DNA of 64,000 nt, taken from the NCBI RefSeq assembly GCF_032854445.1, contig NC_088303.1, positions 34,823,265 to 34,887,264 of the forward strand, read 5' to 3'. The notes under the pieces were generated by a model. The model was not told the origin of the DNA. It did not search any database and saw only the letters and a list, made by a program, of their open reading frames with translations. This document shows positions 6,623-62,100 of the stretch, piece after piece (within the stretch, counting starts at the first letter, position 1; every line of letters begins with the position of its first letter). Both the position numbers and the translations under genes were made by a program. The DNA is from Liolophura sinensis. Lineage: Eukaryota; Mollusca; Polyplacophora; Chitonida; Chitonidae.

Positions 6623-6633
6623 CTGTGTATGGA

Positions 6634-23800: not shown

Positions 23801-26314
23801 AGAGCATAACCTTATGGGTGAAAGAAATCCGTGTTATTACGCAAATTATGTAGATAGGCGATGACAAGTTCATTAAATATGAAATCGAATTCAACATGTA
23901 GTTCAGTGCCTATAAAAGTCTCGCACGGATATGTCAAGGGAAATACAAGTTATTTAAGTCGATCTATCCATGTTACGTGTTTCGTATGTCTTCAAGAATT
24001 GAGGGATTATTTTTTATCATTGTTCAAACATTTGATTCTGCGACGTATTTTATGAAATGTGAAATGAATAAAATTTTGGCAGGGTTGCGACTAATTGTCA
24101 TCATTCCCGAAGTGTTTTAAACTATGCATTAATCTGGAGTTTTATAAACAAGAATCAAATAAAGTAAATAAATTAATTAACCACTGCTTAAACCCGATTG
24201 TTTATATTATTCACGATGGCTTGCAATATTTCATTTATATCCCTTTTTCTTGCGAACTGATAATATATCATGTGCTTGGACGTCGGGCAATTACCTACAC
24301 TTACACTATCAGTATAGCGCAAGCTAAAGGTTTCGGACAGCTGCCAAGTAGCGTATTTGTTGAAGAAATAACTATATGCTCCTCCCATTATGTGGACTAC
24401 ATCTAGTCTTAATTATTGATGTTCACCTACCAGGTCGTCCCAGCAAGATTAGTCTCCCCTTCTTATCTCTTTTGGGGAGTGTAAGATAGGACCTGAAAGA
24501 ACATCGGTAAGCACACTTAACGAAATGCACACTTAACGAATTCAGGTGAATGTAGAGCGCATTATCTTCGATCGAAATATCACTTAAACAAAAAGACATT
24601 TTAACTTTTATGAAAGTTATTAAACCCACATATAAAATCTCAGAAATACATGATATATATGAGAAATCAGCAACTTCCTAATTCTTTGAGCTCATTACTC
24701 CTTTTGAAGCACTTCCAAAACTTACATTTTCCAAAAATATATTAAATATCATAGTCAATAATCAAGTTTTACGAATTTTACAAAGATTTAATGGGCTTAA
24801 TTTCCCCTGAGATTATTACATAACTAGAAGCGGTTTGAGATGAAACAGTTTACGTAATGTAGAATGTGTTGGTGTATGCACCCTTTACCCATTTTCCAGG
24901 ACTTTCTGAATAGCTGGGTCGTGGGTATCTATATTCGCCAACCAATCCGGGTACTTCGTCCGCGTCGTCCAGTAATGGTCGATAGCTTGACGTGCAAACA
25001 CTTGACTGAACTTACGCATGCGCAGAAAGGACAGGAGGAATACGGCATCTGAAAAATTTACCAAAAAAGGATTTATTTACAGATAAACATATGAAAAGCT
25101 GAAGTTTATTCTATTGCTGGAACATGCGCTTTGGCAAGTTTTAAACCAGATTTCATTCTTGCTTTTCAAAATTACTCTGTTGCTATTTTTTAAATAGCTG
25201 TCACAAAAATACAGTATACATAATAAAAATAAAGGGAAAACTTATATTGCAGTTCTTAAATATATGACCAAATCATAATGGTCTCACGTGGACGGCCAAA
25301 TCTACCCACACCAAACCTACCCACTGGCGTCTCACACCAAACCTACCCACAGGCCTCTCACATCAAACCTACCCACAGGCGTCTCACATCAAACCTACCC
25401 ACAGGCGCCTCACAACAAATCTACCCACTTGCCTCTCACACCAAACCTACCCACAGGCCTCTCACACCAAATCGACCCATATGGGTCTCTCACAAAATCT
25501 ATTGGCGTACAACACTGAACCTACCCACGGCGTACATCACCAAATCTGCACAAAGGCGTCTTACACAAAACCTAACTTCTGATACCATCTCATACCAAAC
25601 CTACCCACGTACGCACACGAAATCTAACCATGGGCGTACAACACCAAACCTACCTACGGGCGTACAACACCAAATCTATCCACATGCGTACAACACCAAA
25701 TCTATCCACATGCGTACAACACCAAATCTATGCACTGGCATAGAACACCAAACCTACCCACGTGCGTACAGCACCAAATTTATCCACAGGCGTACAACAT
25801 CAAATCTATCCAGAGGCACACAACACCAAACCTACCCACGGGCGTACAACACGAACCTACCCAAGGGCATATAACACCAAACCTACCCACGGGCGTACAA
25901 CACCAAACCTACCCACGGGCGTACAACACCAAACCTGCCCAGGGGCGTACAACACCAAACCTGCCCACGGGCGTACAACACCAAACCTACCCACGGGCGC
26001 ACAACACCAAACCTACCCACAGGCACACAACACCAAACCTACCCACAGGCGTACAAAAACTAACCTATCCACACGCGTACAATATCAAACATACCCAGGT
26101 GCACAAGACATACCCGTTGGCTTAAAGCATCAAACCCACCCATTGGTGTTCTTAGCCAGCTCTTGTGACTCCGTATCCATCTCCGGAACTCTTCCAGCTG
26201 ACTCTCTCTTTCCGAAGGAATCTCATTTAGGTCTCTCTGAGCAGTTTTTATTGATTCTTCATCGAGGGTGCAGACGTACTTATTTTCTTTGACCTTGTCA
26301 ATCTGAAATGCCAT
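20846..26314 (-). CDS. CRAL-TRIO (Sec14-like) lipid-transfer protein, paralogue 1, 7 exons, 334 aa
   Basis: Exons: 26314-26140, 25048-24889, 24492-24431, 23720-23521, 23315-23205, 22049-21929 and 21021-20846; CDS 1005 nt, all GT-AG, phases 1,2,1,0,0,1. Residues about 35-110 are the CRAL_TRIO_N helical region (LEEFRRWIRSHKSWLRTP, FLLSFLRMRKFSQVFARQAI). Residues about 115-285 are the lipid-binding fold: LPKRDKKGRLILLGRPG, IHGFVVLMDFTGMTMKHMG, then IYPIRTKEVHNYNMGS, RPLLPEKVQKR and LPEEYLPDDYTGP. The family binds small hydrophobic ligands such as tocopherol, retinal or phosphoinositides and carries them between membranes. Here the usual LP-E-Y-GG signature reads LPEEYLPDD. The 5' boundary has an alternative: TTTCAG lies just inside the ATG, so the first codons could instead be intron. 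The 58-codon last exon has a longer acidic tail than the paralogue. Confidence 0.88.
21178..21354 (+). mobile_element. SINE (family A), 5'-truncated
   Basis: It starts inside the body (CCAGCTCATGCTGGCTTCCC) and ends with an AATAAATAAATAA tail. A 14-bp duplication ATTATCCAGAATTT flanks it (21164-21177 and 21355-21368). It lies in intron 6 of the minus-strand CRAL-TRIO gene, antisense to it. Confidence 0.85.
22074..22965. repeat. ~31-bp satellite in intron 5 of CRAL-TRIO paralogue 1
   Basis: About 0.9 kb of imperfect tandem copies of a unit like GTGTAAGCACAATTAATGAA + AGTGAAACACT. Variants alternate AAGTAATAA with ATTAATCAA, and TGTGT with TGGGT. Some copies form a two-unit higher-order pattern. 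An isolated piece of the same repeat (GGTAAGCACACTTAACGAAA) recurs at about 24507, just upstream of exon 3 of the same gene. Confidence 0.85.
25278..26130. repeat. 26-bp minisatellite in intron 1 of CRAL-TRIO paralogue 1
   Basis: Roughly thirty tandem copies of a 26-bp unit (ACCTACCCACGGGCGTACAA + CACCAA). Copies toward 25278 carry CTCTCACAC instead of GTACAACAC. Because 26 is not a multiple of 3, open frames of 131-198 codons appear in every plus-strand frame; these are repeat artefacts. The array stops within about 10 bp of the exon 1 donor. Confidence 0.9.
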
Positions 26315-39308: not shown

Positions 39309-39653
39309 TCAGCCACTGACCAGTGGTGATGAGACTTCATTATCAAAATGAGTGTGATCTGTGCTTGGGGTAGCCGGCTCCATGTTTAGCGGCGGCAGTG
39401 ATGTGAAGTGAATGTGGCAGCGGAGCAGACACTGTAGGGAGTGTGATACAGTCAGGTAGCTTTCGTGTTTCGGTAACCTAAATTTCTTCCATAAAGAAAA
39501 CCAGCTTTTTGAAGTGTCTTTAATTGCGGTGCTTTGAATGTATAAGGTGCTATAAATCAAAGACAAGAATGTGGAGCATGTGACATAAAGGAGTACGACA
39601 ACAACCCACAATAAGTAGTGTGGTCCTCTGAACTTCTCATGGCAGGTCTGCAC
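39309..39653 (-). other. Unrecognised ORF with one hydrophobic segment, cut by the duplication breakpoint
   Basis: A 114-codon minus-strand frame. Near its start is a strongly hydrophobic stretch (LLWVVVVLLYVTCSTFLSLI) that could be a membrane segment or signal anchor. It opens with GTG, not ATG, and could be an internal exon. The left breakpoint of the 7.57-kb duplication (39600) falls inside it, so the second duplicate carries only its first ~18 codons. No family recognised. Confidence 0.25.
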
Positions 39654-40311
39654 GTGTCATGAAAAGACGCGGTGAACTATCTTGGTGCTTTGAGGCTTAG
39701 GCCAAGTACTGGTAGCTACCATGTCATTTTAATGTAATTCCGTGGGACGTCATTACTACATGGTGTCAGCAGTGAGGCAGCATCATAGATATGTAGATAT
39801 GCACAATCGTAATACAATGGAACGATGCTGAAAGATAAAAGTTAAACCGACCAAGCTGATAAACAAATAAACAAACAAATTATGTCACCGAGAAAAAAAT
39901 ATCATATTAGCCTTTTAGGACAGGAGAATGGGTGAAAAACCAACTATGCATGATTCTATGCAGCGCAAACTGATTCGGTCAAGCATATATATGGTGACGT
40001 TGCAAGTCTTGACAAGAGCAGTCGGTATTAAATACAAAAAGGAAGAACTTGGAACAGTTTGCCAACATGATTTTACACTACTCGGATTCCATAATCTCGG
40101 TTTCCACAGATATAAATTTAATTTTATTTAATGAGGAACTGCATTTTTAATGAGTTGTATTTGTCTTTTCTCCAAGCCCGTACATTAAACAGTTCTGTTA
40201 TGCATGTAATTAATTACTTTTCACAGAATAAAGTGTAAAACCAAGAAATAAATTTTAACAAATAAGCTACAATGACATTACCTTGTGTTAATTACTACGT
40301 ATAAAAGGAAC

Positions 40312-40556
40312 GGGCCTGGTGGGTTTAGTATGCTAGTGCAGCACAGCGACCCGGGAGCCTCTCACCAATGCGGTCGCGGTGAGTTGAAGTCCAGCTCATG
40401 CTGGCTTCCTCTCCAGCCATACGTGGGAAGTTCTGCCAGCAACCCTGGATGGTCGTGAATTCCCCGGGCTCCCTCCATAACGCCGGCTTCTGTCGTATAA
40501 GTGAAATAATCTTGAGTACGGCGTAAAATACCAATCAAATAAATAAATAAATAAAT
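40312..40556 (+). mobile_element. SINE (family A), diverged, in duplicate copy 1
   Basis: The head has become GGGCCTGGTGGGTTTAGTATG. The body keeps GAGCCTCTCACCAATGCGGT, CTCATGCTGGCTTCCTC and TTGAGTACGGCGTAAAATACC, with an (AATA)n tail. Confidence 0.8.
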
Positions 40557-42548
40557 AAATATAAAACCAATGTATGCATCCGATAGTTCGACGACAGAGC
40601 AGGAACAATTTCTTTCAGTGTGATGCCGCTATATCCCCAGTACCATCTGTGGAATCATAATGGCTCGATAGTAACCTTGAGCCACGTTTACACAGAACTA
40701 TGGTTCAGTCGGCTCGTCGAACCCACCTTGTCGAACTAAATTAAAACATGCGCTATTTTCATTCGGTTATGCCATAGTCAGAATTCGTCCAATCCCTGTT
40801 AACTTCAATCACATGATCAGAAAATGTGCACATCTGTATTTGACTGTATCTTTGTCTCCATTTTATACAGCACAACGACCAACCCATCAAATATAATTCC
40901 TAAAACACATAGAGTATACAGATCATATCAAGAGTATACACTAATCAAATCCTTTTTAATTATATGGCATTATCTTGTAAGACAATGGAATGGGTAAGAA
41001 AATGCAGAACTTTATAAATTTTAAACTTAATGTCGCAGACTATGGCGCAGACTGTTACTTTGGGACAGTAACAATGTTTTAGCTTTTTATTGATATGAAA
41101 TATGATTTTTTCAAAAAGCACACCTGGTGAAACAGAAAGAGATATGCACGTTTTAGTCCATGCCATTGTCTTAGAACATAATTAGATTAATCTTAATGGT
41201 TTTATATATGTTGTATATACTCAGTGTCTAAAGGACAAGACGATACCTGGCAAAAACATATTTCAATCGGAAGCAGGATACTAAAGTGGTCTAAAAAGAA
41301 TCATACTTTATCATTTTAATGAGATTTCACCAAATAACACGTAGAACAAAGTAAACATACCTCACAAATTGCTGATATGAGTCGAGGCAGCTATCTTGAG
41401 AACTTTCTCCACATTTTTTTTCAAACAGGTTGCTATCAAACTGAGCGACTTAAGCTTTCACGCAACCTTTACACATTCACTTAATAAAGTGGCATGTGAT
41501 AACACAGAACTACTGCATAAGACATCATTTTGAGATCGTTTACAACGATTTACTTACGCGTAGCCGAAAGGCCATTTCGCAAAGTGTTGTGGGCAGGTCT
41601 GTATCATTTACGGACCACCACAGACATAAAAACAGTTGATTTACATTTTTATTGTTGTTCATTTTAGAGTTTAGCGTTTAGCAGTTTCTAACGAACAAAT
41701 ATCAGAGTTAGTGTAAAATTCATTAGGGATGCCGAAAGTTTATGGGAATGAGACAACCGCATCTCACCGGATAAAGCTTAAAATTATTTAAATCTTATGA
41801 TATAATTTTTTTTCTCTGAATTTTTTACAACTGAATAATTTAAATTTTGCTCCTTCTTCTTTCTCGCATGCAAGGGATATTTTTTCTGTTTTTTTTTATT
41901 GTTTTATAAAATACAGCAAAATCATTGCAACGCCGTGTTCAAGCTGAGGTGCTTTCTCTAGCGTTCGCGATAACTAAATCAACACTGCTTTCATCTTAGA
42001 AGCCACCACTACAAAATTGAAGCATAAAATCCAGCGACAATCGAATGTCTGAATCAGCCTCAGTTTTGCTTAGAGTTAGTTTCACTTGTTTCAGAATTGA
42101 GCATGAATTTACTAGTACAACAATCCTATTATAATTTTGTAAATATTTAATAGGGGGTCAAATCACCAGCACAACCCCTCTGGAGGCTACGACCTGAATC
42201 AGGAATACCTTGGCCGTGCATCTGCGGCTAGGCTACTTAAACATGGTCGCTGGAGTTCCTTGTAAATGATTAGTAGGCCCGCTGTATCAGCAGTTCAGTG
42301 CAGATGTGTTGAAGCTGTTGAAGTTTTACCAAACCTTTACTGGGCCGAAAAAAATCTAAAAAAAAAAAAAAAAAATTAATGCCGGTTTAAGATACTTTGA
42401 ACGGTAGTTTTTCAGTGGACATTAACATTAGTCAGGTGCTGTCTTTCACTTTAATGACGATTATTTTAAGCCTTTTATCATTGGGTATATGTTTTGTATA
42501 AAGTATGTTTTGTATAAAGCTCCTGACAGCAGGAGACCTAACTTTCGG

Positions 42549-42800
42549 ATCACGTGACTGCTATGGCGACGCAATGCCTACACCTGCACGAAGCTCTCTT
42601 GACATGAAGATCTCGTGATTACTATGGCGACACAATGCATACAATGCTCGTTTCACTTGCACGAAGCTCTCTTAACATGAAGATCTCGTGGCTGCTGTGA
42701 TGGCGCAATGCCTGCGGTGCCTCTTCACTCGCTCGAAGCCCTCTCAAGGTTAAGAACACGTGACTTCTAGATGCAACGTTAAGATCATATAACTGCCAGG
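42549..42800. repeat. Imperfect ~68-bp tandem repeat, duplicate copy 1
   Basis: About four units carrying the order GATC(T)CGTGACTGCTATGGCG, then GCAATGCCTACA, then TGCACGAAGCTCTCTTGACA. The last unit is diverged. The same block lies at 50130-50381 in copy 2. Confidence 0.65.
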
Positions 42801-43343
42801 ATGACGTTATGCACACGGCGCTGTTTACCATGGTAATTGTGTGCACGTAACGCTAAAACAGCGCCCTGCAAGCGTGCACTGACCGTCGTTATATAAGTGA
42901 AATATTCTTGCGAGACTACAAGACTATACAATGAAATAAATAAATTCCAAATGCAGTGAAGCCTGAGTGCTTTTCATATGATATCCAGGTTATGTTTGGG
43001 TTAATAGAGCGTTTCGAGTACGGTGTACAGACACAGTTACACAGTGCGTGAGTGGACTCTAGGCACTAGCGGATGACTATATAGGTGGGCCACGAAATGC
43101 GTGTGGAAACAAACCATACAAAAGGCTCCCACAAGAAGTAGAACAGCAGCTTAGCGACCTATTTGTGCAGGTAAGGCAATGTTAACGACTTAAGGTGTAA
43201 TGAATAATCGCAAGTTAGACTCGCAGAAATGTCATGGCATTAGGCCTGCATGGTAGTCATGATACGCCACAAATCCTGCACCTACATCATCGCCTTTCTC
43301 TATGCACATGTGTACATAGCATGGTACACTTCTATAGTTGCTC

Positions 43344-43700
43344 GATAGCACAGTTGGTAGAGCGTCCGCTTCGGGACCGGTAGATCCAGGATCAATCCTT
43401 GATCGAGTCACACCTAAGACTTTAAAAGAGGAAGTTGTAACTTCCTCGCTTGGCGTTCAGCATGAAGGGGATAGTGCAACGACTGGTTGACCCGTATCAG
43501 TATAATGGCTCGGGCGGGGCGGCTTACTTGCCTTCGGTAAGTCGTCTCAGTGAAGCAGCACTAAATAAAAGAGCGGTGGAAATCCGTCCTGCTACAAGAA
43601 GGCACATTACACGTACATGCACCCTAAAGATTCCTTCGTCGTCATATGACTGAAAAATTGTTGAGTACGACGTTAAACCCCAAGCACTCACTCACTCACT
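43344..43700 (+). mobile_element. Full-length SINE family B with tRNA head and (CACT)n tail
   Basis: It starts GATAGCACAGTTGGTAGAGC (A-box) and has GGATCAATCC in the B-box position. It continues through a body containing GCTTACTTGCCTTCGGTAAG and GTTGAGTACGACGTTAAACC, and ends CACTCACTCACT. The 12-bp duplication CTATAGTTGCTC at 43332-43343 and 43701-43712 gives exact ends. The GAGTACG(A/G)CGT-AAAC 3' motif resembles family A, so both may be mobilised by related LINEs. Confidence 0.9.
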
Positions 43701-43799
43701 CTATAGTTGCTCCATAGGTTGCGTATTCACAATTTTTTTTTACTTCTTTAGTAATTAATTCATGTTAAATATTGCATTAATTTCTTATGTCACGGTGTT

Positions 43800-45380
43800 C
43801 AGGTCTATGTGGGTGGAGTCTACCTAAACAATGTTCTATTCCTATGATTGATTCCATAAGTTTTGCTTTATAAAATGACTTGTCCATAACAACGACAGCT
43901 TTACCTTTGTCTGCTTCTGTTATAATAATGTTAGGATTTGATCCAAAATTATCCAGAGCTGACTTCTGTGCAGATGATAAATTTGACATGGCTTTTGATG
44001 TAGATTTGAGGGGAATCTTTTGCAAATTATCTAAAAATGTTTCCAGGTTATCGTCGTCACTGGTGCGTGGCCTGAAAGTGGATGGGTTTTAAGCAAGAGA
44101 TTCGTCACTCACGTTATCGTTAATACCAGGCGGGGCCCTGTTGCTTAACCTAACCGGTTTCGCCCGACTTGTTTGTGTCGTTTCGGGTACGTTTCTTGTG
44201 TTCCGTTGTATCCGGCTCTGTTTACGTCCACCGTCTTTATCAGTTCTTACTCTCGGTTAGTCAACCATATGCATTAATTCACTCATTCGTAGTTGTCTGC
44301 TAAACTCACGTATGTCTGTCTACAGATCTTCAGTGTTAGCTGGTGGCGTTGGGGTGAAGTCAAGTCCTAATTTTAATACATAATCTTCTCTTTGATAGCC
44401 TCAATAACCTTCATCCCCAAATATCCTTCACAATGGAAGTATATTCTAAGTCAATACCCTTTTTAGACATACTTGTCTTGAAAGAGGGGACTCAACTGAT
44501 CAACTGATATTTATCGAAAACCCACGGACACACAACTCTATCTTCAATTTAGTTCGAATCAACCGCGTCATACTCGGGAAAATATCCCATATTCCCTTGC
44601 CAGAAGAATCTGTACAATAGTAAACGTAAAATCGAAACAAAATGAAAGATTAATAGAACTTAAATCATCTCAACGCAGCATGGGTTACCCGGAAGGATTA
44701 ACTGACAAAGGAATTAGGACCGCTCAGGGTCATTCAATGACTGAACTGAGGGAACCCTCACATAAAAAACCTGACGAGAAGATAATTCCATCTGTTTCAC
44801 ACATAATCCCAATAGTAACAACATCTTCCCACTCATTGTGAATACCTTACCAGTTCTAAAAAAACAGTGACAGGATGAAAGATGTTCTAGCCAAATCTGA
44901 GGTCATTAATGGCAAACAACTGGCTCCAAGCCTCAAAAAAAATGTTAGCTCGCGCTCACTTTTCAGAAAAATCTGACGCCATCGGTCTCTAAATGCAATT
45001 CACCTAGATGTGGAGCATGCATACACATGTTAGATAGATCAAGCTTTCAGTTTGAGAGAGAAGATTCTTTGTTTAATGTAAAATTTGACATGTGCTGCAC
45101 TGTAAAAATGTTGTATATGCACTTGCTTGCATGGGATGTGGCAAACAATATACTAGCCAGACCTAAGATTTCCGTTCCAGATTGACGCTACATCGACAAC
45201 ATATCAACAACGAAGAATATTGTTATCTTCTAGTCAGTAAGCACATACGCTCATGCGCATTGTCATTGACTCCCTCCTTTAAAGTCTTTCCATTTTATAA
45301 AGTATTAAACTGAAATCAAGCCACCTTAGATGTAAAAGAAACTTTCTTCATAAATAAATACAACCCATGTCTCAATGGTA
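43800..45380. pseudogene. Decayed Penelope-like retroelement with inverted 5' part, duplicate copy 1
   Basis: On the minus strand at about 44340-43860 lies the upstream part of the ORF (FGSNPNIIITEADKGKAVVV and MDKSFYKAKLMES), the conserved start of the Penelope reverse transcriptase. On the plus strand, from about 44430, lies the downstream part: MEVYSKSIPFLDILVLKEGT (RT), CNSPRCGACIHM (Cys motif), VVYALACMGCGKQYTSQT and RSRLTLHRQHIN (GIY-YIG endonuclease), ending ETFFINKYNPCLN near 45377. The central palm with the catalytic YxDD is absent, and several stops and frameshifts are present, so it cannot be active. Confidence 0.8.
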
Positions 45381-45528
45381 ATCATCGGCCCTAATATCGT
45401 ACCTAATAATATCATGATATACCACCTGCTTGTATGGTTTATGTTGATTAATTTTGTCAAACCAGTTCATTTTTTTACTCATTATATATATATTACTCAC
45501 TGTATATGTACAAATATTATGTCACAGA

Positions 45529-45594
45529 TTATCCGCAGGGTCATCCGTTCGATGTTAATAAAGACGCATCCTCACTTGTCGCCCTGCGGATAGA
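45529..45594 (+). repeat. Hairpin-forming inverted repeat downstream of the Penelope relic
   Basis: ATCCGCAGGG near 45531 pairs with CCCTGCGGAT near 45583, a perfect 10-bp stem with a loop of about 45 nt. It lies 150 bp beyond the GIY-YIG ORF and may belong to the element's 3' UTR. Repeated in copy 2 near 53112-53172. Confidence 0.5.
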
Positions 45595-46149
45595 CACTCT
45601 TAGGTAATCTATTGTTCGCTACTTAACAGCTTTATACATGTACGACCGGTTTAGCCTCATTTCGCCTACTTTCACACCTTTATGAGTCTCATTTCGCCTA
45701 CTTCAGATTTTTCGGACAGGCATCCTGTAGATGGCTGGGGGCACGCCCCCTAATGGGTTCCTACTGAACGTCTCTCACTCATCGGCTGAGTGAACTTAGT
45801 AGAAGCGCAATGCTCACTGAAGTCTTGATGGTGAATACCGTTTGCATCAGAGTGACACTGGCAGAACTTTACTCACTTATCACAATAAATACGATCGCAG
45901 ACGTCGAGACAATCATTAAGTAACATCATGGCAGCAGTGCAAGCACCTTGTTCCCAGCAACACTTTATCCATGTATTATGCCATGTAACTAAACTACTGC
46001 CTGTTAAGACATGTACGCAACATGTTCCTTAGTTACTTGTAAAACATATCCTATATAAAGACCTCTGTGGACATTCATATTCCTATTCCTTGAAATTAAT
46101 ATGAAGTTTGAAACTGCAGTTGGAATATAACAGGATGTAGTTAAGAAGT

Positions 46150-46210
46150 CGTTTTATTATTTTTTTCCTATATAAATTCTCCTCCATCAGGGGATCTTTC
46201 TCTATTTCTT

Positions 46211-46274
<64 letters not shown>

Positions 46275-46315
46275 AAGAAATGAGGAGAATTTATATAGGA
46301 AAAAAATAATCCTGT

Positions 46316-46357
<42 letters not shown>

Positions 46358-46360
46358 CGT
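46150..46360. repeat. (AT)n array inside an imperfect palindrome, duplicate copy 1
   Basis: TTTTTTTCCTATATAAATTC + TCCTC on the left is inverted on the right as GAGGAGAATTTATATAGGAA. Both arms also carry TATTTCTTCAAA / TTTGAAGAAAT next to about 55 bp of (AT)n. The left arm has an extra CATCAGGGGATCTTTCT. A second (AT)n lies just to the right. The matching block in copy 2 is 53733-53940 and differs in (AT)n. Confidence 0.75.
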
Positions 46361-47893
46361 CCAAACCCGGATGGAATATTCCGGATTCCAAAGGAGAGTC
46401 AGTAAATACAGAATCCACAATTAAGATGGAGTCCTTAATCTACAGATGTCAGTCCAATAATGTGTAACTTTTCAGGGCGGACGGTTTGACATTAATGTCC
46501 ATGATGCCGAGCAGGTGATATATGTTTCCTCGGAAATATACACAAAGTCACTTTCAGGGTAAACAGGGATGAAATGTACCTCATGGCACAAAGAGACAAT
46601 GGGCGATACAAGCGCCAAAATAACGTCTCCAAAAAGTAGCAAGTGGCGAAACAAAGCTCACAAAGTGCTGCGTACAAAAAATGGAGTATGAATGTCGAAT
46701 GACGTGAAAGCCGATATCTCCAAACCCAGCAATATCCTTCACAGTGAATGATAGTAAATATGGCTGATCTCAAGTGGATTTGAATGAATGACTGCCCACA
46801 AGTGGACTGGAATAAATGACTGTGAGCTTCACAACCCCGTCGCTCATATTTATAGACTGACGTGAAAGAAAATTCTGGATGGCTTCATCGTAAACATGTT
46901 TACAACACCAATACATATTTCCAGAATGTGTACCCTATGTACAATGACATTAAACCCATAAACACCTAAGCCTTAATAACGCTCGACTGAATTACAGTGC
47001 AGGCTGTAATGTAAACAAATGGGAAATGTAGGCCAGACAATGACTCAGAAAGAATAAAGAAAATATAGTACAATGTTTAAAGACGGATTCGTTACAATAG
47101 TGAATGGTTACCAATTGATTACAGTCTGGTATCAGCTATCTAACTGCTTGATTGTGGCTGTGACTGATATAATAATATAATAACAACCCACAATAAGTAG
47201 TGTGGTCCTCTGAACTTCTCATGGCAGGTCTGCACGTGTCATGAAAAGACGCGGTGAACTATCTTGGTGCTTTGAGGCTTAGGCCAAGTACTGGTAGCTA
47301 CCATGTCATTTTAATGTAATTCCGTGGGACGTCATTACTACATGGTGTCAGCAGTGAGGCAGCATCATAGATATGTAGATATGCACAATCGTAATACAAT
47401 GGAACGATGCTGAAAGATAAAAGTTAAACCGACCAAGCTGATAAACAAATAAACAAACAAATTATGTCACCGAGAAAAAAATATCATATTAGCCTTTTAG
47501 GACAGGAGAATGGGTGAAAAACCAACTATGCATGATTCTATGCAGCGCAAACTGATTCGGTCAAGCATATATATGGTGACGTTGCAAGTCTTGACAAGAG
47601 CAGTCGGTATTAAATACAAAAAGGAAGAACTTGGAACAGTTTGCCAACATGATTTTACACTACTCGGATTCCATAATCTCGGTTTCCACAGATATAAATT
47701 TAATTTTATTTAATGAGGAACTGCATTTTTAATGAGTTGTATTTGTCTTTTCTCCAAGCCCGTACATTAAACAGTTCTGTTATGCATGTAATTAATTACT
47801 TTTCACAGAATAAAGTGTAAAACCAAGAAATAAATTTTAACAAATAAGCTACAATGACATTACCTTGTGTTAATTACTACGTATAAAAGGAAC

Positions 47894-48137
47894 GGGCCTG
47901 GTGGGTTTAGTATGCTAGTGCAGCACAGCGACCCGGGAGCCTCTCACCAATGCGGTCGCGGTGAGTTGAAGTCCAGCTCATGCTGGCTTCCTCTCCAGCC
48001 ATACGTGGGAAGTTCTGCCAGCAACCCTGGATGGTCGTGAATTCCCCGGGCTCCCTCCATAACGCCGGCTTCTGTCGTATAAGTGAAATAATCTTGAGTA
48101 CGGCGTAAAATACCAATCAAATAAATAAATAAATAAA
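47894..48137 (+). mobile_element. SINE (family A), duplicate copy 2
   Basis: Sequence-identical counterpart of the element at 40312, carried by the tandem duplication and not an independent insertion. Confidence 0.8.
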
Positions 48138-50924
48138 TAAATATAAAACCAATGTATGCATCCGATAGTTCGACGACAGAGCAGGAACAATTTCTTTCAG
48201 TGTGATGCCGCTATATCCCCAGTACCATCTGTGGAATCATAATGGCTCGATAGTAACCTTGAGCCACGTTTACACAGAACTATGGTTCAGTCGGCTCGTC
48301 GAACCCACCTTGTCGAACTAAATTAAAACATGCGCTATTTTCATTCGGTTATGCCATAGTCAGAATTCGTCCAATCCCTGTTAACTTCAATCACATGATC
48401 AGAAAATGTGCACATCTGTATTTGACTGTATCTTTGTCTCCATTTTATACAGCACAACGACCAACCCATCAAATATAATTCCTAAAACACATAGAGTATA
48501 CAGATCATATCAAGAGTATACACTAATCAAATCCTTTTTAATTATATGGCATTATCTTGTAAGACAATGGAATGGGTAAGAAAATGCAGAACTTTATAAA
48601 TTTTAAACTTAATGTCGCAGACTATGGCGCAGACTGTTACTTTGGGACAGTAACAATGTTTTAGCTTTTTATTGATATGAAATATGATTTTTTCAAAAAG
48701 CACACCTGGTGAAACAGAAAGAGATATGCACGTTTTAGTCCATGCCATTGTCTTAGAACATAATTAGATTAATCTTAATGGTTTTATATATGTTGTATAT
48801 ACTCAGTGTCTAAAGGACAAGACGATACCTGGCAAAAACATATTTCAATCGGAAGCAGGATACTAAAGTGGTCTAAAAAGAATCATACTTTATCATTTTA
48901 ATGAGATTTCACCAAATAACACGTAGAACAAAGTAAACATACCTCACAAATTGCTGATATGAGTCGAGGCAGCTATCTTGAGAACTTTCTCCACATTTTT
49001 TTTCAAACAGGTTGCTATCAAACTGAGCGACTTAAGCTTTCACGCAACCTTTACACATTCACTTAATAAAGTGGCATGTGATAACACAGAACTACTGCAT
49101 AAGACATCATTTTGAGATCGTTTACAACGATTTACTTACGCGTAGCCGAAAGGCCATTTCGCAAAGTGTTGTGGGCAGGTCTGTATCATTTACGGACCAC
49201 CACAGACATAAAAACAGTTGATTTACATTTTTATTGTTGTTCATTTTAGAGTTTAGCGTTTAGCAGTTTCTAACGAACAAATATCAGAGTTAGTGTAAAA
49301 TTCATTAGGGATGCCGAAAGTTTATGGGAATGAGACAACCGCATCTCACCGGATAAAGCTTAAAATTATTTAAATCTTATGATATAATTTTTTTTCTCTG
49401 AATTTTTTACAACTGAATAATTTAAATTTTGCTCCTTCTTCTTTCTCGCATGCAAGGGATATTTTTTCTGTTTTTTTTTATTGTTTTATAAAATACAGCA
49501 AAATCATTGCAACGCCGTGTTCAAGCTGAGGTGCTTTCTCTAGCGTTCGCGATAACTAAATCAACACTGCTTTCATCTTAGAAGCCACCACTACAAAATT
49601 GAAGCATAAAATCCAGCGACAATCGAATGTCTGAATCAGCCTCAGTTTTGCTTAGAGTTAGTTTCACTTGTTTCAGAATTGAGCATGAATTTACTAGTAC
49701 AACAATCCTATTATAATTTTGTAAATATTTAATAGGGGGTCAAATCACCAGCACAACCCCTCTGGAGGCTACGACCTGAATCAGGAATACCTTGGCCGTG
49801 CATCTGCGGCTAGGCTACTTAAACATGGTCGCTGGAGTTCCTTGTAAATGATTAGTAGGCCCGCTGTATCAGCAGTTCAGTGCAGATGTGTTGAAGCTGT
49901 TGAAGTTTTACCAAACCTTTACTGGGCCGAAAAAAATCTAAAAAAAAAAAAAAAAATTAATGCCGGTTTAAGATACTTTGAACGGTAGTTTTTCAGTGGA
50001 CATTAACATTAGTCAGGTGCTGTCTTTCACTTTAATGACGATTATTTTAAGCCTTTTATCATTGGGTATATGTTTTGTATAAAGTATGTTTTGTATAAAG
50101 CTCCTGACAGCAGGAGACCTAACTTTCGGATCACGTGACTGCTATGGCGACGCAATGCCTACACCTGCACGAAGCTCTCTTGACATGAAGATCTCGTGAT
50201 TACTATGGCGACACAATGCATACAATGCTCGTTTCACTTGCACGAAGCTCTCTTAACATGAAGATCTCGTGGCTGCTGTGATGGCGCAATGCCTGCGGTG
50301 CCTCTTCACTCGCTCGAAGCCCTCTCAAGGTTAAGAACACGTGACTTCTAGATGCAACGTTAAGATCATATAACTGCCAGGATGACGTTATGCACACGGC
50401 GCTGTTTACCATGGTAATTGTGTGCACGTAACGCTAAAACAGCGCCCTGCAAGCGTGCACTGACCGTCGTTATATAAGTGAAATATTCTTGCGAGACTAC
50501 AAGACTATACAATGAAATAAATAAATTCCAAATGCAGTGAAGCCTGAGTGCTTTTCATATGATATCCAGGTTATGTTTGGGTTAATAGAGCGTTTCGAGT
50601 ACGGTGTACAGACACAGTTACACAGTGCGTGAGTGGACTCTAGGCACTAGCGGATGACTATATAGGTGGGCCACGAAATGCGTGTGGAAACAAACCATAC
50701 AAAAGGCTCCCACAAGAAGTAGAACAGCAGCTTAGCGACCTATTTGTGCAGGTAAGGCAATGTTAACGACTTAAGGTGTAATGAATAATCGCAAGTTAGA
50801 CTCGCAGAAATGTCATGGCATTAGGCCTGCATGGTAGTCATGATACGCCACAAATCCTGCACCTACATCATCGCCTTTCTCTATGCACATGTGTACATAG
50901 CATGGTACACTTCTATAGTTGCTC

Positions 50925-51281
50925 GATAGCACAGTTGGTAGAGCGTCCGCTTCGGGACCGGTAGATCCAGGATCAATCCTTGATCGAGTCACACCTAAGA
51001 CTTTAAAAGAGGAAGTTGTAACTTCCTCGCTTGGCGTTCAGCATGAAGGGGATAGTGCAACGACTGGTTGACCCGTATCAGTATAATGGCTCGGGCGGGG
51101 CGGCTTACTTGCCTTCGGTAAGTCGTCTCAGTGAAGCAGCACTAAATAAAAGAGCGGTGGAAATCCGTCCTGCTACAAGAAGGCACATTACACGTACATG
51201 CACCCTAAAGATTCCTTCGTCGTCATATGACTGAAAAATTGTTGAGTACGACGTTAAACCCCAAGCACTCACTCACTCACT
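50925..51281 (+). mobile_element. SINE family B, full length, duplicate copy 2
   Basis: Counterpart of 43344-43700, with the same CTATAGTTGCTC flanks at 50913-50924 and 51282-51293. Confidence 0.9.
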
Positions 51282-51380
51282 CTATAGTTGCTCCATAGGT
51301 TGCGTATTCACAATTTTTTTTTACTTCTTTAGTAATTAATTCATGTTAAATATTGCATTAATTTCTTATGTCACGGTGTT

Positions 51381-52961
51381 CAGGTCTATGTGGGTGGAGT
51401 CTACCTAAACAATGTTCTATTCCTATGATTGATTCCATAAGTTTTGCTTTATAAAATGACTTGTCCATAACAACGACAGCTTTACCTTTGTCTGCTTCTG
51501 TTATAATAATGTTAGGATTTGATCCAAAATTATCCAGAGCTGACTTCTGTGCAGATGATAAATTTGACATGGCTTTTGATGTAGATTTGAGGGGAATCTT
51601 TTGCAAATTATCTAAAAATGTTTCCAGGTTATCGTCGTCACTGGTGCGTGGCCTGAAAGTGGATGGGTTTTAAGCAAGAGATTCGTCACTCACGTTATCG
51701 TTAATACCAGGCGGGGCCCTGTTGCTTAACCTAACCGGTTTCGCCCGACTTGTTTGTGTCGTTTCGGGTACGTTTCTTGTGTTCCGTTGTATCCGGCTCT
51801 GTTTACGTCCACCGTCTTTATCAGTTCTTACTCTCGGTTAGTCAACCATATGCATTAATTCACTCATTCGTAGTTGTCTGCTAAACTCACGTATGTCTGT
51901 CTACAGATCTTCAGTGTTAGCTGGTGGCGTTGGGGTGAAGTCAAGTCCTAATTTTAATACATAATCTTCTCTTTGATAGCCTCAATAACCTTCATCCCCA
52001 AATATCCTTCACAATGGAAGTATATTCTAAGTCAATACCCTTTTTAGACATACTTGTCTTGAAAGAGGGGACTCAACTGATCAACTGATATTTATCGAAA
52101 ACCCACGGACACACAACTCTATCTTCAATTTAGTTCGAATCAACCGCGTCATACTCGGGAAAATATCCCATATTCCCTTGCCAGAAGAATCTGTACAATA
52201 GTAAACGTAAAATCGAAACAAAATGAAAGATTAATAGAACTTAAATCATCTCAACGCAGCATGGGTTACCCGGAAGGATTAACTGACAAAGGAATTAGGA
52301 CCGCTCAGGGTCATTCAATGACTGAACTGAGGGAACCCTCACATAAAAAACCTGACGAGAAGATAATTCCATCTGTTTCACACATAATCCCAATAGTAAC
52401 AACATCTTCCCACTCATTGTGAATACCTTACCAGTTCTAAAAAAACAGTGACAGGATGAAAGATGTTCTAGCCAAATCTGAGGTCATTAATGGCAAACAA
52501 CTGGCTCCAAGCCTCAAAAAAAATGTTAGCTCGCGCTCACTTTTCAGAAAAATCTGACGCCATCGGTCTCTAAATGCAATTCACCTAGATGTGGAGCATG
52601 CATACACATGTTAGATAGATCAAGCTTTCAGTTTGAGAGAGAAGATTCTTTGTTTAATGTAAAATTTGACATGTGCTGCACTGTAAAAATGTTGTATATG
52701 CACTTGCTTGCATGGGATGTGGCAAACAATATACTAGCCAGACCTAAGATTTCCGTTCCAGATTGACGCTACATCGACAACATATCAACAACGAAGAATA
52801 TTGTTATCTTCTAGTCAGTAAGCACATACGCTCATGCGCATTGTCATTGACTCCCTCCTTTAAAGTCTTTCCATTTTATAAAGTATTAAACTGAAATCAA
52901 GCCACCTTAGATGTAAAAGAAACTTTCTTCATAAATAAATACAACCCATGTCTCAATGGTA
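51381..52961. pseudogene. Decayed Penelope-like retroelement, duplicate copy 2
   Basis: Counterpart of 43800-45380 with the same inverted 5' part, missing central RT and stop codons. These lesions therefore predate the tandem duplication. Confidence 0.8.
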
Positions 52962-53791
52962 ATCATCGGCCCTAATATCGTACCTAATAATATCATGATA
53001 TACCACCTGCTTGTATGGTTTATGTTGATTAATTTTGTCAAACCAGTTCATTTTTTTACTCATTATATATATATTACTCACTGTATATGTACAAATATTA
53101 TGTCACAGATTATCCGCAGGGTCATCCGTTCGATGTTAATAAAGACGCATCCTCACTTGTCGCCCTGCGGATAGACACTCTTAGGTAATCTATTGTTCGC
53201 TACTTAACAGCTTTATACATGTACGACCGGTTTAGCCTCATTTCGCCTACTTTCACACCTTTATGAGTCTCATTTCGCCTACTTCAGATTTTTCGGACAG
53301 GCATCCTGTAGATGGCTGGGGGCACGCCCCCTAATGGGTTCCTACTGAACGTCTCTCACTCATCGGCTGAGTGAACTTAGTAGAAGCGCAATGCTCACTG
53401 AAGTCTTGATGGTGAATACCGTTTGCATCAGAGTGACACTGGCAGAACTTTACTCACTTATCACAATAAATACGATCGCAGACGTCGAGACAATCATTAA
53501 GTAACATCATGGCAGCAGTGCAAGCACCTTGTTCCCAGCAACACTTTATCCATGTATTATGCCATGTAACTAAACTACTGCCTGTTAAGACATGTACGCA
53601 ACATGTTCCTTAGTTACTTGTAAAACATATCCTATATAAAGACCTCTGTGGACATTCATATTCCTATTCCTTGAAATTAATATGAAGTTTGAAACTGCAG
53701 TTGGAATATAACAGGATGTAGTTAAGAAGTCGTTTTATTATTTTTTTCCTATATAAATTCTCCTCCATCAGGGGATCTTTCTCTATTTCTT

Positions 53792-53857
<66 letters not shown>

Positions 53858-53900
53858 AAGAAATGAGGAGAATTTATATAGGAAAAAAATAATCCTGTTA

Positions 53901-53941
<41 letters not shown>

Positions 53942-54944
53942 CGTCCAAACCCGGATGGAATATTCCGGATTCCAAAGGAGAGTCAGTAAATACAGAATCC
54001 ACAATTAAGATGGAGTCCTTAATCTACAGATGTCAGTCCAATAATGTGTAACTTTTCAGGGCGGACGGTTTGACATTAATGTCCATGATGCCGAGCAGGT
54101 GATATATGTTTCCTCGGAAATATACACAAAGTCACTTTCAGGGTAAACAGGGATGAAATGTACCTCATGGCACAAAGAGACAATGGGCGATACAAGCGCC
54201 AAAATAACGTCTCCAAAAAGTAGCAAGTGGCGAAACAAAGCTCACAAAGTGCTGCGTACAAAAAATGGAGTATGAATGTCGAATGACGTGAAAGCCGATA
54301 TCTCCAAACCCAGCAATATCCTTCACAGTGAATGATAGTAAATATGGCTGATCTCAAGTGGATTTGAATGAATGACTGCCCACAAGTGGAATGGAATAAA
54401 TGACTGTGAGCTTCACAACCCCGTCGCTCATATTTATAGACTGACGTGAAAGAAAATTCTGGATGGCTTCATCGTAAACATGTTTACAACACCAATACAT
54501 ATTTCCAGAATGTGTACCTATGTACAATGACATTAAACCCATAAACACCTAAGCCTTAATAACGCTCGACTGAATTACAGTGCAGGCTGTAATGTAAACA
54601 AATGGGAAATGTAGGCCAGACAATGACTCAGAAAGAATAAAGAAAATATAGTACAATGTTTAAAGACGGATTCGTTACAATAGTGAATGGTTACCAATTG
54701 ATTACAGTCTGGTATCAGCTATCTAACTGCTTGATTGTGGCTGTGACTGATATGTAATTGATGGGTTACGAACTTGTTCAGAGATGCATTATCTTATTTG
54801 CAACATGGTACAACTGGAAAACGGTATACATGTACATGTGTAGCCAACACTGCGGTAATCAACCAGTTCGTGCTGACGAACTACTACTGTAGTCTGTCTC
54901 AACTGTTGGTTAGTCTCAATTGTTCATGCGCAAAAATATCACTC

Positions 54945-55107: not shown

Positions 55108-58100
55108 GCGTCAGATAGTTCACTCTCTCGTTCACACGAAATTTGCACAACCTTACCAAGCATGGCCCAGACATCCCTCGGAAACACTGACTATGTGAGT
55201 AACATGGATGACTTCACGCTGTCCAAGGCCATCGATGAATTGCGGGAAGATCCCGTTGATCGGCTGGCGGCGCTGCAGGCCTTTCGCGAGTGGATAGGCA
55301 AACAGAAGGCCTGGCTTCATACACCCACTGGTGCGATTTGTTCTTACAATCTCCCTTTAATTATAAATTTTTAACGAATGCATGGATTATAGAACTATGC
55401 CAACTTAATTACAGTCTGTTTTCACATACTTTTAAAGTGATTGTGCTGGTTTTTCGGACAGATTAAAGTGATTTTTATGTTAGAATTTGTATTATATGTA
55501 CAAATACAAGGATAATATTCTCAACTGATTTTGATTAACTTTAAAATCTAAAGTCTCCAGTATGCAGTCTTATTGAGCAACATGATTCGTCAACAATGAT
55601 GAACATTAAACTTGTTTTGGAAGAAGACGGGTGAATTGCCACGTTAAGTCCTACTTTCGATGCTTACAATTATTGTAGGCATACTAGTATACGATAAAGT
55701 CAATATGTGATTCAAAAAACTAACTCTTGGCTGTTTGTATTCATAGAAAGTCCATTACAAAAAACATGTGTTCATGTTTTGTTAACAGATGCCAACTTTT
55801 TGATGTCCTTTCTGCGCATGCGCAAATTTAGCCAAGTGATGGCACGGAAAGCACTTGTAGACTATTGGACAGCACGAATGGAGCGTCCTGGTTGGTTCAA
55901 AGACGTAGACCCGGCTGGAGACCTCATCCAAAATGTGATCGGCGAAGGGTAAGGAAATAGATGTGAAATGTATTTCTTTTTCTGTTACATTTAGTATTTA
56001 TGTTGTCAGCCCGTGTATGAAAAAAAAACAAAACAAAAAACAAAACAAAAAAAAAAAAACAACAAAACAAAAAACAAAAAAAAACACAAATGATCGATAT
56101 GCGGACAGAAGGTGGGAGGCATACGCATTTCAAAATTGCACACCAAGAACATGAAGTCACCAACCAAAACAACAGCAACGTCCCACAGATCGGTTTGTCG
56201 CCAATAAACCGATGCCATGTAAAAAGAAGTCAATAGATGGACAATATGATGAAATGGAAAAAAATTATATACAGTATTCCGTTATCGATGACATTTTATG
56301 GGGTAGCTATATGATTATGCTTTAAGGTGTAACTTTGCTTTCAACATAATTTGGTTATGTGACGACGAAATTTGACGATATCTGGCCACAATTTTAACAC
56401 ACACTCAACCATATTGTGTTTAACCCATGCATTTTCTCAAACTAAGAGAAACGGACACTTTATACAGAGACCACACAAGAGCTGGTATGACTTGTATACG
56501 GTAACATTGAAATGTCAAAGCAATGTGATTACCAACCTAAGCGAAACATATGACAAGACAGCAGTGACAAATCCGAAACTGTGTCTGACAATAAATGAAT
56601 CGATTTTTTTCTCCATTTCATATTTCATCAGAAGACTACTCTGCGTATTTTTACATATCTGTATATTCACAAACATAAACCGTACAGCGATATTGTAATT
56701 TTAAAACGTGCACAGATGACACACACATGTAGAAGTTCTGAGAGATGTTGGGTTGTCCTTTGGTTTACAGAGCCCTTCTGGTTCTTCCCGGAAGAGACAG
56801 AGAAGGACGCACGGTTCTGTTTGGACGGCCAGGTAAAGTGAACTGGGACTCTGCTTGTAAGATATTGCGTTTTCAGTTGGTTTACACTGTCCTTCTGGTT
56901 CTTTCTGGAAGACACTCGAGATCACGCGCCTTTCTACGTGATGTTACGGTACCGAGACAAGGCTCGTTTATATTTGGGTGCTAACAGCGCAGTTATCCCC
57001 CCCCCCCCTTTTGAAGATAATTGTTGATAGATTCATTGAGTCTAAATCTGTGTCAGTGGTATTAAATCAAGCACCTGCATCTGAATTAATCAAACACATC
57101 CAAAATAAAATGAACTATTTACTCACGTATTAGCTATTAATATTAATATTATTAGCTATGAATATTAAGTATTCAACATGGCGATGTCCACGAAAGACGG
57201 CATGAAAAGAGAGTTCGAAGGAGTAATCGCGTATGCCAAGGCCAGCGGTAGTGTTTCTATAGAGTTAAAGGTAAAGCTTGTCACCGCTCTTGGTGCGGCA
57301 TGTGAGAAAAGAGATATTGCAGTCTTATCGACTGGGTATGGTAAAAGTCTTGTATATCAGCTTTTTGCCTTGGGCCATCCAGCGTCTAGAACACAGTGAA
57401 GAACTCACGATAACTATTATTGTATCCCCTGTGAATTCTGTGATGCAAAATCAAGTGGAAATTGTGGAAATATATTTTAATTGCCATGGTTCAGCTTCAG
57501 CACGAACGGAGATAATAAAAATACCCACGAAGCTTGTAAATAGCGCACTGCTCAACAGTTCGGTACGTTCGTCATCGCGTGCAGCTGTTTACGTAAGGCG
57601 AAAGTCATCTCAGATAAGGGAAAGTAATGCACGAGCGCTGGATTTTGACGTCGCTGTTGTAAAAAGTATGGCGCCCAAGTGTATTAGAGATGTAATTTCA
57701 GCAGAGGCAGTATAGGTACACCTCTATTTAGAATGCCTGGAAGACACAAAGAGGGACGCACGGGACTGTTTGGAAGGTCAGGTAAGGTGAATTTTGCCCC
57801 TGTTAGTAAGATGTATTGTCCGATGGTTTATAAAGCCCCTCTGCTTCTTCCGGGAAGAGACAAGGAGGGGCGCACGCTTCTGTTTGCACCGCCAGGTAAG
57901 TTGAACTGAGTCTCTGAAAGCTGCTCTATTGTCACAGAGCTCTCCTGCGTTTTCCCGGAAGAGACAATAAAGGATCCACGGTTCAGTCTGAACGGCCAGG
58001 TAAGGAAACTGTGTATCTGTTTGTAAGGTGTTGTATTTGTGCATTGGTTATAAGGCCCTTCTGGTTCTTCCGGGAAGAGACAAGGAGGGGCACACGCTTC

Positions 58101-59057
58101 TGTTTTGACGGCCAGGGAAGTGTAACTGTGTCTCTGTAAGCTTGTAAAGTGCTCTAATTCCCTATGATCTTCGTTCTTCCGGGAACAAACAACGAGGTAC
58201 GCACGGCTCTGTTTGACTCAGGACAGAAGTACATATATGACCATTTCAAGATTCATATACTGATTGTTTAAGCAATCTAAGTTGAGATCTCCATTGATTA
58301 GTTCCTGTTTTAGGTAGAATCAACACTTCAGGAAAAAACTACTCAGCTGACGATACGTTTAAGGCCGCGTTTTCTGTGGCGGACTATCTGTTACGAGACG
58401 AAAACGTCCAGGTTAATGGATTTGTGTCGGTGACGGACTTCACGGATTTTAGTCTGCGTCATAACAATTTCAACGGGGCCGGAAATACCCGACAAAATGC
58501 CGCAATTTGGTCAGTAGGTATCAATGAGACAAAGTAGACCGTCGTTTAGGACACGACAAGAAAACTTAAAATTTAGTTTTTTTTCAAATTATAGATCGTT
58601 AAAAACATTATTTTTCATTCAAGAATTTTTTAACACAATAAGTACGATTAAATATAACACAGGTATAGTGCTTTATTACATACCATATAAATTAAGAAAT
58701 GAAGTATTTGGCTGCATTAATTCAGGGAATGTGTGCTACGAATAAAATTACAATGCTTCTTGATACAGACAATGGTAAACTGCCTCATAATAAAGTCAAG
58801 GGTCTGTGACGTATGCGTACAGTGTACGTAATTCATGGTTTGATAGGATATTTTTGTGTGACCACTTTCATGTTGTCGACGTGTAACAGTAATTTTTTAT
58901 TATCCATTACAGAAAGTATACCCAATCCGAGTTAAAGAAATCCACCACTACAACATGGGCAAGTTTGGAGAGTTAGCGTTTACGCTGGCTAGACCATTTC
59001 TGCCCGAGAAGATTCAGAAACGAGTATGCGTCTTACATGTTAAAATACAATGTAGGC

Positions 59058-59144
<87 letters not shown>

Positions 59145-62100
59145 AAAAGAAAATACTTAGGCTATGCATCGGTAATTAATTCTCTTAGTATATCGCATGT
59201 CAATTACACGTACATGATAGAGCCATGTTCAATCCTTATGTCTGTTTCTGTACCCATCCAGTCACTCATCCATCGAACCAGTCATCCATCGAACCAGTCA
59301 TCCATCCAGTCACTCATCCATCCAGTCACTCATCCATTCAGTCAATCATCCATCCAGTCCCTCATCCATCCAGTCACTCATCCATCGAACCAGTCATCCA
59401 TCGAACCAGTCATCCATCCAGTCACTCATCCATCCAGTCACTCATCCATCCAGTCACTCATCCATCCAGTCAATCATCCATCCATTCACTCATCCATCCA
59501 GTCACTCATCCATCCAGTCACTCATCTATCGAACCAGTCATCCATTAAACCACTCATCCATCCAGTCAGTCATCCATCGAACCAGTCATCCATCCAGTCA
59601 CCCATCCATCCAGTCACTCATCCATCCAGTCAAGCATCCATCCAGTCACGCATCCATTCAGTCACTCATCCATCCAGTCAATCATCCATCCAGTCACTCA
59701 TCCATCCAGTCACGCATCCATCGAACCAGTCATCCATCAAACCACTCATCCATCCAGTCACTCATCCATCGAACCAGTCATCCATCGAACCAGTCATCCA
59801 TCAAACCACTCATCCATCCAGTCATTCACCCATCCAGTCACTCATCCATCCAGTCACTCATCCATCGAACCAGTCATCCATCAAACCACTCATCCATCCA
59901 GTCATTCATCCTTCCAGTCACTCATCCATCCAGTCACTCATTCATCCCGTCACTCATCCATCCAGTCACTCATCCATCCAGTCACGCATCCATCGAACCA
60001 GTCATCCATCAAACCACTCATCCATCCAGTCACTCATCCATCCAGTCACTCATCCATTCAGTCACTCATCCATCCAGTCACTCATCCATTCAGTCAATCA
60101 TCCATCCAGTCCCTCATCCATCCAGTCACTCATCCATCGAACCAGTCATCCATCAAACCACTCATCCATCCAGTCACTCATCCATCGAACCAGTCATCTA
60201 TCAAACCTTTCATCCATCCAGTCACTCATCCATCCAGTCACTCACCCATCCAGTCACTCATCCATTCAGTCACTCATCCATCCAGTCACTCATCCATCCA
60301 GTCACCCATCCATCCAGTCACTCATCCATTCAGTCACTCATCCATCCAGTCACTCATCCATTCAGTCACTCATCCATCCAGTCAATCCTCAATCCAGTCA
60401 CTCATCCATCTCATCCATCGAGCCAGTCATCCATCAAACCACTCATCCATTCAGTCACTCATCCATCCAGTCACTCATCCATTCAGTCACTCATCCATCC
60501 AGTCAATCCTCAATCCAGTCACTCATCCATCTCATCCATCGAACCAGTCATCCATCAAACCACTCATCCATCCAGTCACTCATCCACCCAGTCACTCATC
60601 CATCGAACCAGTCATCCATTAAACCACTCATCCATCCAGTCATTCATCCATCCAGGCAGTCATCCATCCAGTCACTCATCCACCCAGTCACTCATCCATC
60701 GAACCAGTCATCCATCAAACCACTCATCCATCCAGTCATTCATCCTTCCAGTCACTCATCCATCCAGTCACTCATTCATCCCGTCACTCATCCATCCAGT
60801 CACGCATCCATCGAACCAGTCATTCATCAAACCACTCATCCATCCAGTCACTCATCCATCCAGTCACTCATCCATCGAACCAGTCATCTATCAAACCACT
60901 CATCCATCCAGTCACTCATCCATCAAACCACTCACCGGTTCAGTCACTCATCCATCCAGTCCCTCATCCATTCAGTCAATCATCCATCCAGTCACTCATC
61001 CATCCAGTCACTCATCCATCCTGTCACTCATCCATCGAATCAGTCATCCATCAAACCAGTCATCCATCAAACCACTCATCCATCCAGTCACTCATCCATC
61101 CAGTCATTCATCCATCCAGTCACTCATCCATTCAGTCAATTATTCATCCAGTCACTCATCCATCCAGTCACTCATCCATCGAACCAGTTATCCATCAAAC
61201 CACTCATCCATTTCAATCACTCATCCATCGAACCAGTCATCCATCAAACCACTCATCCATCCAGTCACTCATCCGTTCAGTCACTCATCCATCCAGTCAC
61301 TCATCCATTCATTCAATCATCCATCAAACCACTCATCCATCCAGTCACTCATACATCCAGTCACTCATCCATCGAACCAGTCATCCATCAAACCACTCAT
61401 CCATTCAGTCACTCATCCATCGAACCACTCATCCATCCAGTCACTCATCCATCCAGTCACTCACCCATCCAGTCACTCATCCATCCAGTCACTCATCCAT
61501 CGAACCAGTGAACCATCAAACCACTCATCCACCCAGTCATTCATCCATCCAGTCACTCATCCATCCAGTCACACATCCATCCAGTCACTCATTCATCCAG
61601 TCACTCAGCCATCCAGTCACTCATCCGTTCACGCACTCATCCATCCAGTCTCTCATCCATCCAGCCACTCATCCAGTCACGCACTCATCCATCCAAATAA
61701 GTCACCCCTTTAATCACTAATCAGCATTTTTGACATAAATAAAATGCCAAGTAAACCAACAAATAAATAATAATAATAAATAAGAATTTTTCAAAACTAC
61801 ATTTAGCACATGGTTTATGGTTTATAGTTTCAATGATTTCGTTTGATATTTGCATGCCTACTGCAGATATTTAACCACAGTCACCTGATGTCCTTGTACG
61901 AGTACATTGACAAGTCTATGTTACCTGACGAGTATCTGCCAGACGACCACGAGGGTCCGAGCGCTGGATCCACGGAGTCTCTTATAGGTATGGGACCGAG
62001 ATATTTCAGGACAGAGCTAGTTACATAAAACTAACCTATAACGTTACTTACTCGTAACTACCGTGGTGACACGCTGCTTATAGTAACGGAACCTGGTTGT

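Follow-up and report, generated by a model that had tools for sequence, protein, structure and literature searches.

Tandem copies of a complete exon in a CRAL-TRIO gene of Liolophura sinensis, probably an old minisatellite decaying around one working exon

The window analysed here is a stretch of 64,000 nt from Liolophura sinensis (NC_088303.1, positions 34,823,265 to 34,887,264, forward strand), and positions refer to this window unless another locus is named. Its + strand carries an apparently intact CRAL-TRIO gene, alpha-TTP/CRALBP-like, comprising exon 1 (coding part of 169 nt, 55162..55330, matched by a paralogue exon 1), exon 2 (160 nt, 55789..55948, phase 2 at its end), exon 3, exon 4 (200 nt, 58314..58513) and exon 5 (111 nt, 58913..59023). 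A probable last coding exon (IFNHSHLMSLYEYIDKSMLPDEY..., 61867..62028, +), with an uncertain 3' end, was placed by a weak tblastn match (E 7.5e-4) and by reading the frame. The protein joined from exons 1-5 matched PF00650 with E 9.5e-21 and 74.6 bits, above the gathering cut-off of 22.6, which makes it a CRAL-TRIO protein, and it matched the PDB entries 3hy5 (CRALBP, E 9.1e-15) and 1r5l (alpha-TTP, E 1.4e-13). The start of the matched domain is encoded by exon 3. The CRAL-TRIO domain is common to alpha-tocopherol transfer protein, retinaldehyde-binding protein 1 and the host protein, and the host gene is one of at least nine relatives on a single contig. The intron preceding its last exon also holds a long 16-nt minisatellite (CCATCCAGTCACTCAT, 59254-61700), within which reading frames of up to 844 codons resemble repeat artefacts.

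The CRAL-TRIO genes found on this contig (C9 of a 609-Mb genome) were the host, a second gene in the same window (winA, - strand, exons 1-5 at ~26278-23205, exon plan as in the host) and L041 to L047, so that eight paralogues were available for comparison. Exon 3 measured 62 nt between AG and GT in the host and in seven of the eight. The eighth, L046 (exon 3 at 6632-6693), had no AG acceptor at the expected place, its exon 2 was not found by tblastn, and it is possibly a pseudogene. Self-searches at E 0.05 revealed no second exon 3 in any of the eight paralogues, and open-licence PMC papers yielded no described case of exon duplication or mutually exclusive exons in CRAL-TRIO or alpha-tocopherol transfer protein genes.

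In the host gene, intron 3 holds an array of tandem exon 3 copies with their splice-site flanks. A repeat search with the copies in register placed the array at 56771-58224 with a spacing of 104-117 nt, and the best extra copy gave a blastn E of 1.15e-11 when searched within the window. The repeated unit consists of the acceptor side, exon 3 and the donor side, and is thus a tandem repeat spanning the exon-intron boundary. These results, together with the coordinates, bear out the initial annotation, which had described exon 3 as multiplied with its short intron; its count of seven tandem copies did not hold, as we found six. Copy a (56771..56832, +) is the presumed working exon. Copy bc, in two parts, is described below. 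Copy d (57834..57895, +) has an open frame and AA in place of the acceptor AG; copy e (57938..57999, +) has an open frame; copy f (58054..58115, +) has AA for AG, GG for GT and an in-frame TGA; and copy g (58163..58224, +) has lost acceptor and donor and is heavily diverged. Tandem Repeats Finder did not call the array because the copies are too diverged, and the sole inverted repeat listed there was the exon's own near-palindrome, between copies. A genome search with 57716-58240, in which very common words were skipped, returned two matches, one being the query and the other the a-b part of this array, and hence no array copies outside the window for this query.

The segments that had been read as copies b and c form the left and right halves of a single copy, into which a dispersed repeat of ~0.82 kb (56913..57736, +) has inserted. 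The left part lies at 56888..56915 (+) and has AC where the acceptor AG is expected; the left edge of the insert is uncertain by ~3 nt, so the two overlap. The right part, from the duplicated target onward, lies at 57737..57781 (+) and keeps the donor gtaagg, while the stretch 57720-57736, which the exon alignment had put in copy c, is repeat sequence. Joined, the halves make exactly 62 nt with an open frame and no stop, the acceptor being lost and the donor kept. It is this insertion, together with the joined 62-nt exon, that reduces the count to six.

A search with 56960-57740, in which 40 of 249 candidates were scored, gave 45 matches, counting that in the window itself and the fragments of a single copy. 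The inserted piece matches at many genomic places and is therefore a dispersed repeat, present at no fewer than ~40 places among those scored, its own included. Seven of nine fetched repeat copies aligned in one piece, starting at window positions 56912-56918; six of these seven ended at 57729-57736 and L057 ended earlier, while L056 and L059 aligned in two pieces. The insert is flanked by CTGGAAGACAC on both sides (56905-56915 and 57737-57747), and the ends of the other repeat copies suggest that about 8 nt of it is a target-site duplication. On reading of the flanks, L055 had a perfect 8-nt duplication; those of the others were imperfect or none was clear. The repeat ends look like CATTC...GAATG. 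One reading frame of the repeat was examined and had no Pfam match; any similarity to helicase-like reading frames is no more than an impression.

The window also holds a 7.57-kb tandem duplication (39600-47170 and 47182-54753) with 99.92% identity, which is either very recent or an assembly duplication. Such a possible assembly error nearby could cast doubt on the exon array as well. However, the exon copies differ pairwise at 7-29 of 62 sites and one of them carries an insertion, whereas assembly errors yield near-identical copies. We therefore regard the probability that the array is an assembly artefact as close to negligible.

The matrix used to score splice signals was built from the nine family genes (44 donors, and 34 acceptors after exon 3 of L046 had been left out). 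Copy a scored 7.8 for its acceptor and 7.8 for its donor, and copy e scored 1.8 and 10.9, respectively. Three of the 34 real family acceptors scored below that of copy e when each was left out in turn. The donors of bc (10.9) and d (12.3), neither of which has an AG, and that of copy e all exceed the donor of copy a. The results showed that AG, an open frame and GT are present in both a and e, as had been noted initially, and that on paper copy e can be spliced, though its acceptor is weak. The acceptor was lost in four of the five extra copies, leaving e as the sole spliceable one. The stepwise loss that had been described as exon birth and decay is evident on the side of decay (bc and d lost the acceptor only, whereas f and g lost both sites, f also having a stop); for exon birth we found no evidence.

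Tandem exons that are used in a mutually exclusive manner are known from, for example, OGDH (4a/4b), Dscam and arthropod muscle myosin. The array shares with them equal length and phase, short gaps and one extra copy with all signals. It is unlike them in that no peptide conservation was seen and one of five extra copies is spliceable. Tandem exon duplication itself is common, with ~10% of animal genes affected according to a 2002 survey cited in PMC9013439. A sequence rule described in PMC3228551 for candidate mutually exclusive exons asks for similar length, splice sites, frame and homology, and copy e alone of the five extra copies agrees with it in length, phase, splice sites and homology. 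The initial annotation had suggested that gaps of ~45-55 nt between adjacent copies, short for an intron, could enforce mutually exclusive use. Gaps between adjacent copies do measure 42-55 nt (a-b 55, c-d 52, d-e 42, e-f 54 and f-g 47 nt, from the coordinates), but a and e are not adjacent. They are separated by 1105 nt, which rules out steric exclusion and is far above the steric threshold that PMC7969005 gives for OGDH, a distance of ~50 nt from the 5' splice site to the branch point. Because the exon is 62 nt long, including both a and e would shift the joined frame into a stop at codon 191, and skipping both would bring one at codon 111. Only the reading frame, penalising a+e, would thus be able to make the two exclusive.

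These features make copy e a candidate for a true alternative exon that replaces a, with exclusivity imposed by the reading frame: it keeps AG, frame and GT, its donor is stronger than that of a, and both a+e and double skipping end in a stop. We assessed whether copy e is constrained by codon positions, peptide and survival. Copies a and e differed at 4/6/3 sites of codon positions 1/2/3. For comparison, three tandem exon copies, of 31 codons each, in a myosin heavy-chain gene of this genome (L060 208-1387, G000:C1:26642207-26643386) lie in a stretch originally fetched as a control for another question. Their differences are mostly at third positions (4/0/15, 4/1/19 and 0/1/16 pairwise), and they are likely to be functional alternative exons, judging from this pattern. 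Fisher P values for a-e against these pairs were 0.0033, 0.0015 and 9e-5, respectively. All pairs of a, bc, d, e and f summed to 44/46/40, against 8/2/50 for myosin, with a nominal P of 1e-11 that is inflated because pairs share changes; the copy set in which c was counted separately gave 53/44/57, compared with 44/46/40 for the set with bc joined. The dN/dS of a-e was 2.52 on 2 synonymous changes, which are too few to call positive selection.

The peptide of copy e is 61.9% identical to that of a (13 of 21 residues, 8 differing). The change of VLF to VQS reported initially is correct, and it brings Q and S into the strand at two positions where seven of eight paralogues (L041 has T) and all eight, respectively, carry hydrophobic residues. 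In addition, the GR turn reads GS in copy e, where six of the eight paralogues have R. Against a profile of the eight paralogue exons, copies a, d and e scored 40.9, 32.3 and 14.3, and the paralogues, left out in turn, scored 19.5-55.0; copy e thus falls below all eight and below d. We then simulated drift from the six-copy consensus, a proxy for the ancestor, with the 14 substitutions of e and no stops (2000 runs for each of three transition biases), and 69-75% of runs reached the peptide score of e. Relative to the consensus, e has 10 nonsynonymous and 4 synonymous changes, and 8.8-9.3 nonsynonymous changes are expected without selection. This drift test is weak, since copy a, presumably constrained, was also not separated from drift (P 0.27-0.30). 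Depending on the indel rate, drift is expected to leave 0.87-2.02 of five copies intact, with a probability of 0.63-0.94 for at least one, so that chance would be expected to leave one of five decaying copies intact. In a comparison of exon with intron divergence, the exon mismatch was 0.255 with c counted as a separate copy, and the intron mismatch was 0.20 downstream and 0.23 upstream against 0.22 for shuffled intron; pairwise intron alignments were no better than shuffled.

Thus, none of the three tests (codon positions, peptide, survival) showed a sign of constraint on the peptide of copy e. Singly, each is weak on an exon of 62 nt and ~20 codons, and weak selection on e or its splice sites could escape. 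The proposal that e is used alternatively, and could thereby alter ligand contacts, found no support: there is no third-position excess, Q and S occupy hydrophobic strand positions, the peptide scores under all eight paralogues, drift equals its score, and its intactness is expected by chance. We consider it highly improbable that e serves as an alternative to a. According to the initial annotation, neutral evolution of e together with exclusive use of a in RNA would reduce the array to a decayed duplication; as regards the former, the substitution pattern of e agrees with neutrality in the tests applied.

Another reading, which the codon-position test does not touch, is that copy e, together with the strong donors of bc, d and e, lowers expression by serving as a poison exon or splicing decoy. 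The peptide of a poison exon need not be conserved, because inclusion with a gives a premature stop (codon 191, out of frame), and a constraint on splicing alone would escape both the codon-position and the peptide tests. The donors of bc, d and e (10.9-12.3 against 7.8 in a) also agree with this reading. On the other hand, nothing indicates conservation of splice sites, with the acceptor gone from four of five extra copies, and amphioxus arrays of this type reportedly leave splicing undisturbed (PMC3087553, PMC3902484). We judge this role of copy e to be very unlikely.

Those amphioxus arrays, termed 'mirage' minisatellites, are described in the globins BflGb6/BflGb9, in Adh3 and in TnC, with similar repeats in PGBD5; the globin paper considers that repeat copies could serve as cryptic sites, while regular splicing is reported undisturbed (PMC3087553, PMC3902484). 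Like the exon 3 array, mirages as described there repeat an exon-intron boundary in tandem, with AG/GT retained in part of the copies, and their units, 10-160 bp long, are comparable in length. The exon 3 array differs in that its unit takes in the entire 62-nt exon with both boundaries. Its copies are also more diverged, at 11-47% of exon sites between pairs, whereas BflGb6 units are given as 81-100% identical.

Repeats seeded on exon edges were also present elsewhere in the genome. In L041, a 64-nt unit containing the last 19 nt of exon 1 and the donor occurs in 10 copies, 8 of them with GT, the genuine site included, and a 49-nt unit containing the acceptor and the first 17 nt of exon 2 occurs in ~30 copies with 94% matches; 26 matches to the acceptor-bearing pattern, the genuine site included, were counted. 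Intron 1 of this gene (G000:C9:32844500-32853500, reverse-strand coordinates 879-1520 and 2678-4157) thus holds two minisatellites whose units derive from the gene's own splice sites, most copies with GT or AG, and these arrays are more striking than that of exon 3. The array that follows exon 1 of winA (26-nt unit, ~30 copies, window 25300-26100) includes the exon's donor edge as a diverged unit, with 19 of 26 matches, a level reached by none of 500 shuffles and none of 551 other 26-mers of the locus. Weaker repeats of exon 1 were seen in L045 and L046 by blastn and by eye, and two self-matches of 13-16 nt in L044 look like chance. Clear exon-edge arrays were present in two of the eight other family genes (L041 twice, and winA) and in only three of the 34 family introns tested, the host's included, a small share that counts against the explanation preferred below.

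In the myosin stretch L060, the 3' edge of one of nine exons (GTTGTTG followed by GTAAGT) is repeated with a unit of ~30 nt at 2545-2733 (G000:C1:26644544-26644732). There are six copies of GTAAG/GTAAA, with GTAAA in one and the presumed genuine site included. Each unit holds a donor-like site and TAG or CAG, and together they form a row of micro exon-intron units. Exon-edge arrays are thus found in no fewer than two unrelated gene families of this genome, CRAL-TRIO and myosin.

Taken together, we hold with considerable confidence that the exon 3 array would be an old mirage-type minisatellite that captured the whole of exon 3 and is decaying neutrally around the working copy a, a reading that rests on genomic sequence. 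Exon 3 and a few tens of nt of intron on each side were probably amplified in tandem in the manner of a minisatellite, perhaps by replication slippage or unequal crossing-over. Copy a would be the working exon, and the other five copies would be removed with the intron and drift without selection. A later insertion of the dispersed repeat would have split one copy (bc), and copy e would be a chance survivor of drift, spliceable on paper and unmaintained. It is unlikely that copy e is spliced in, whether as a replacement for a, giving a second isoform whose lipid-binding fold has a polar strand, or downstream of a, where it would break the frame as a poison exon; were this so, a CRAL-TRIO gene would have gained a new regulated exon from a mirage-type minisatellite.

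As it stands, the array is a clear case of a minisatellite capturing an entire exon, with stages of decay side by side. If exon-edge arrays prove common here, two old ideas could be examined in this genome: first, that new introns and exons arise from splice sites duplicated in tandem, and second, that numerous decoy sites are ignored by the spliceosome. Intron 1 of L041, with its many donor-edge and acceptor-edge copies, is an example.
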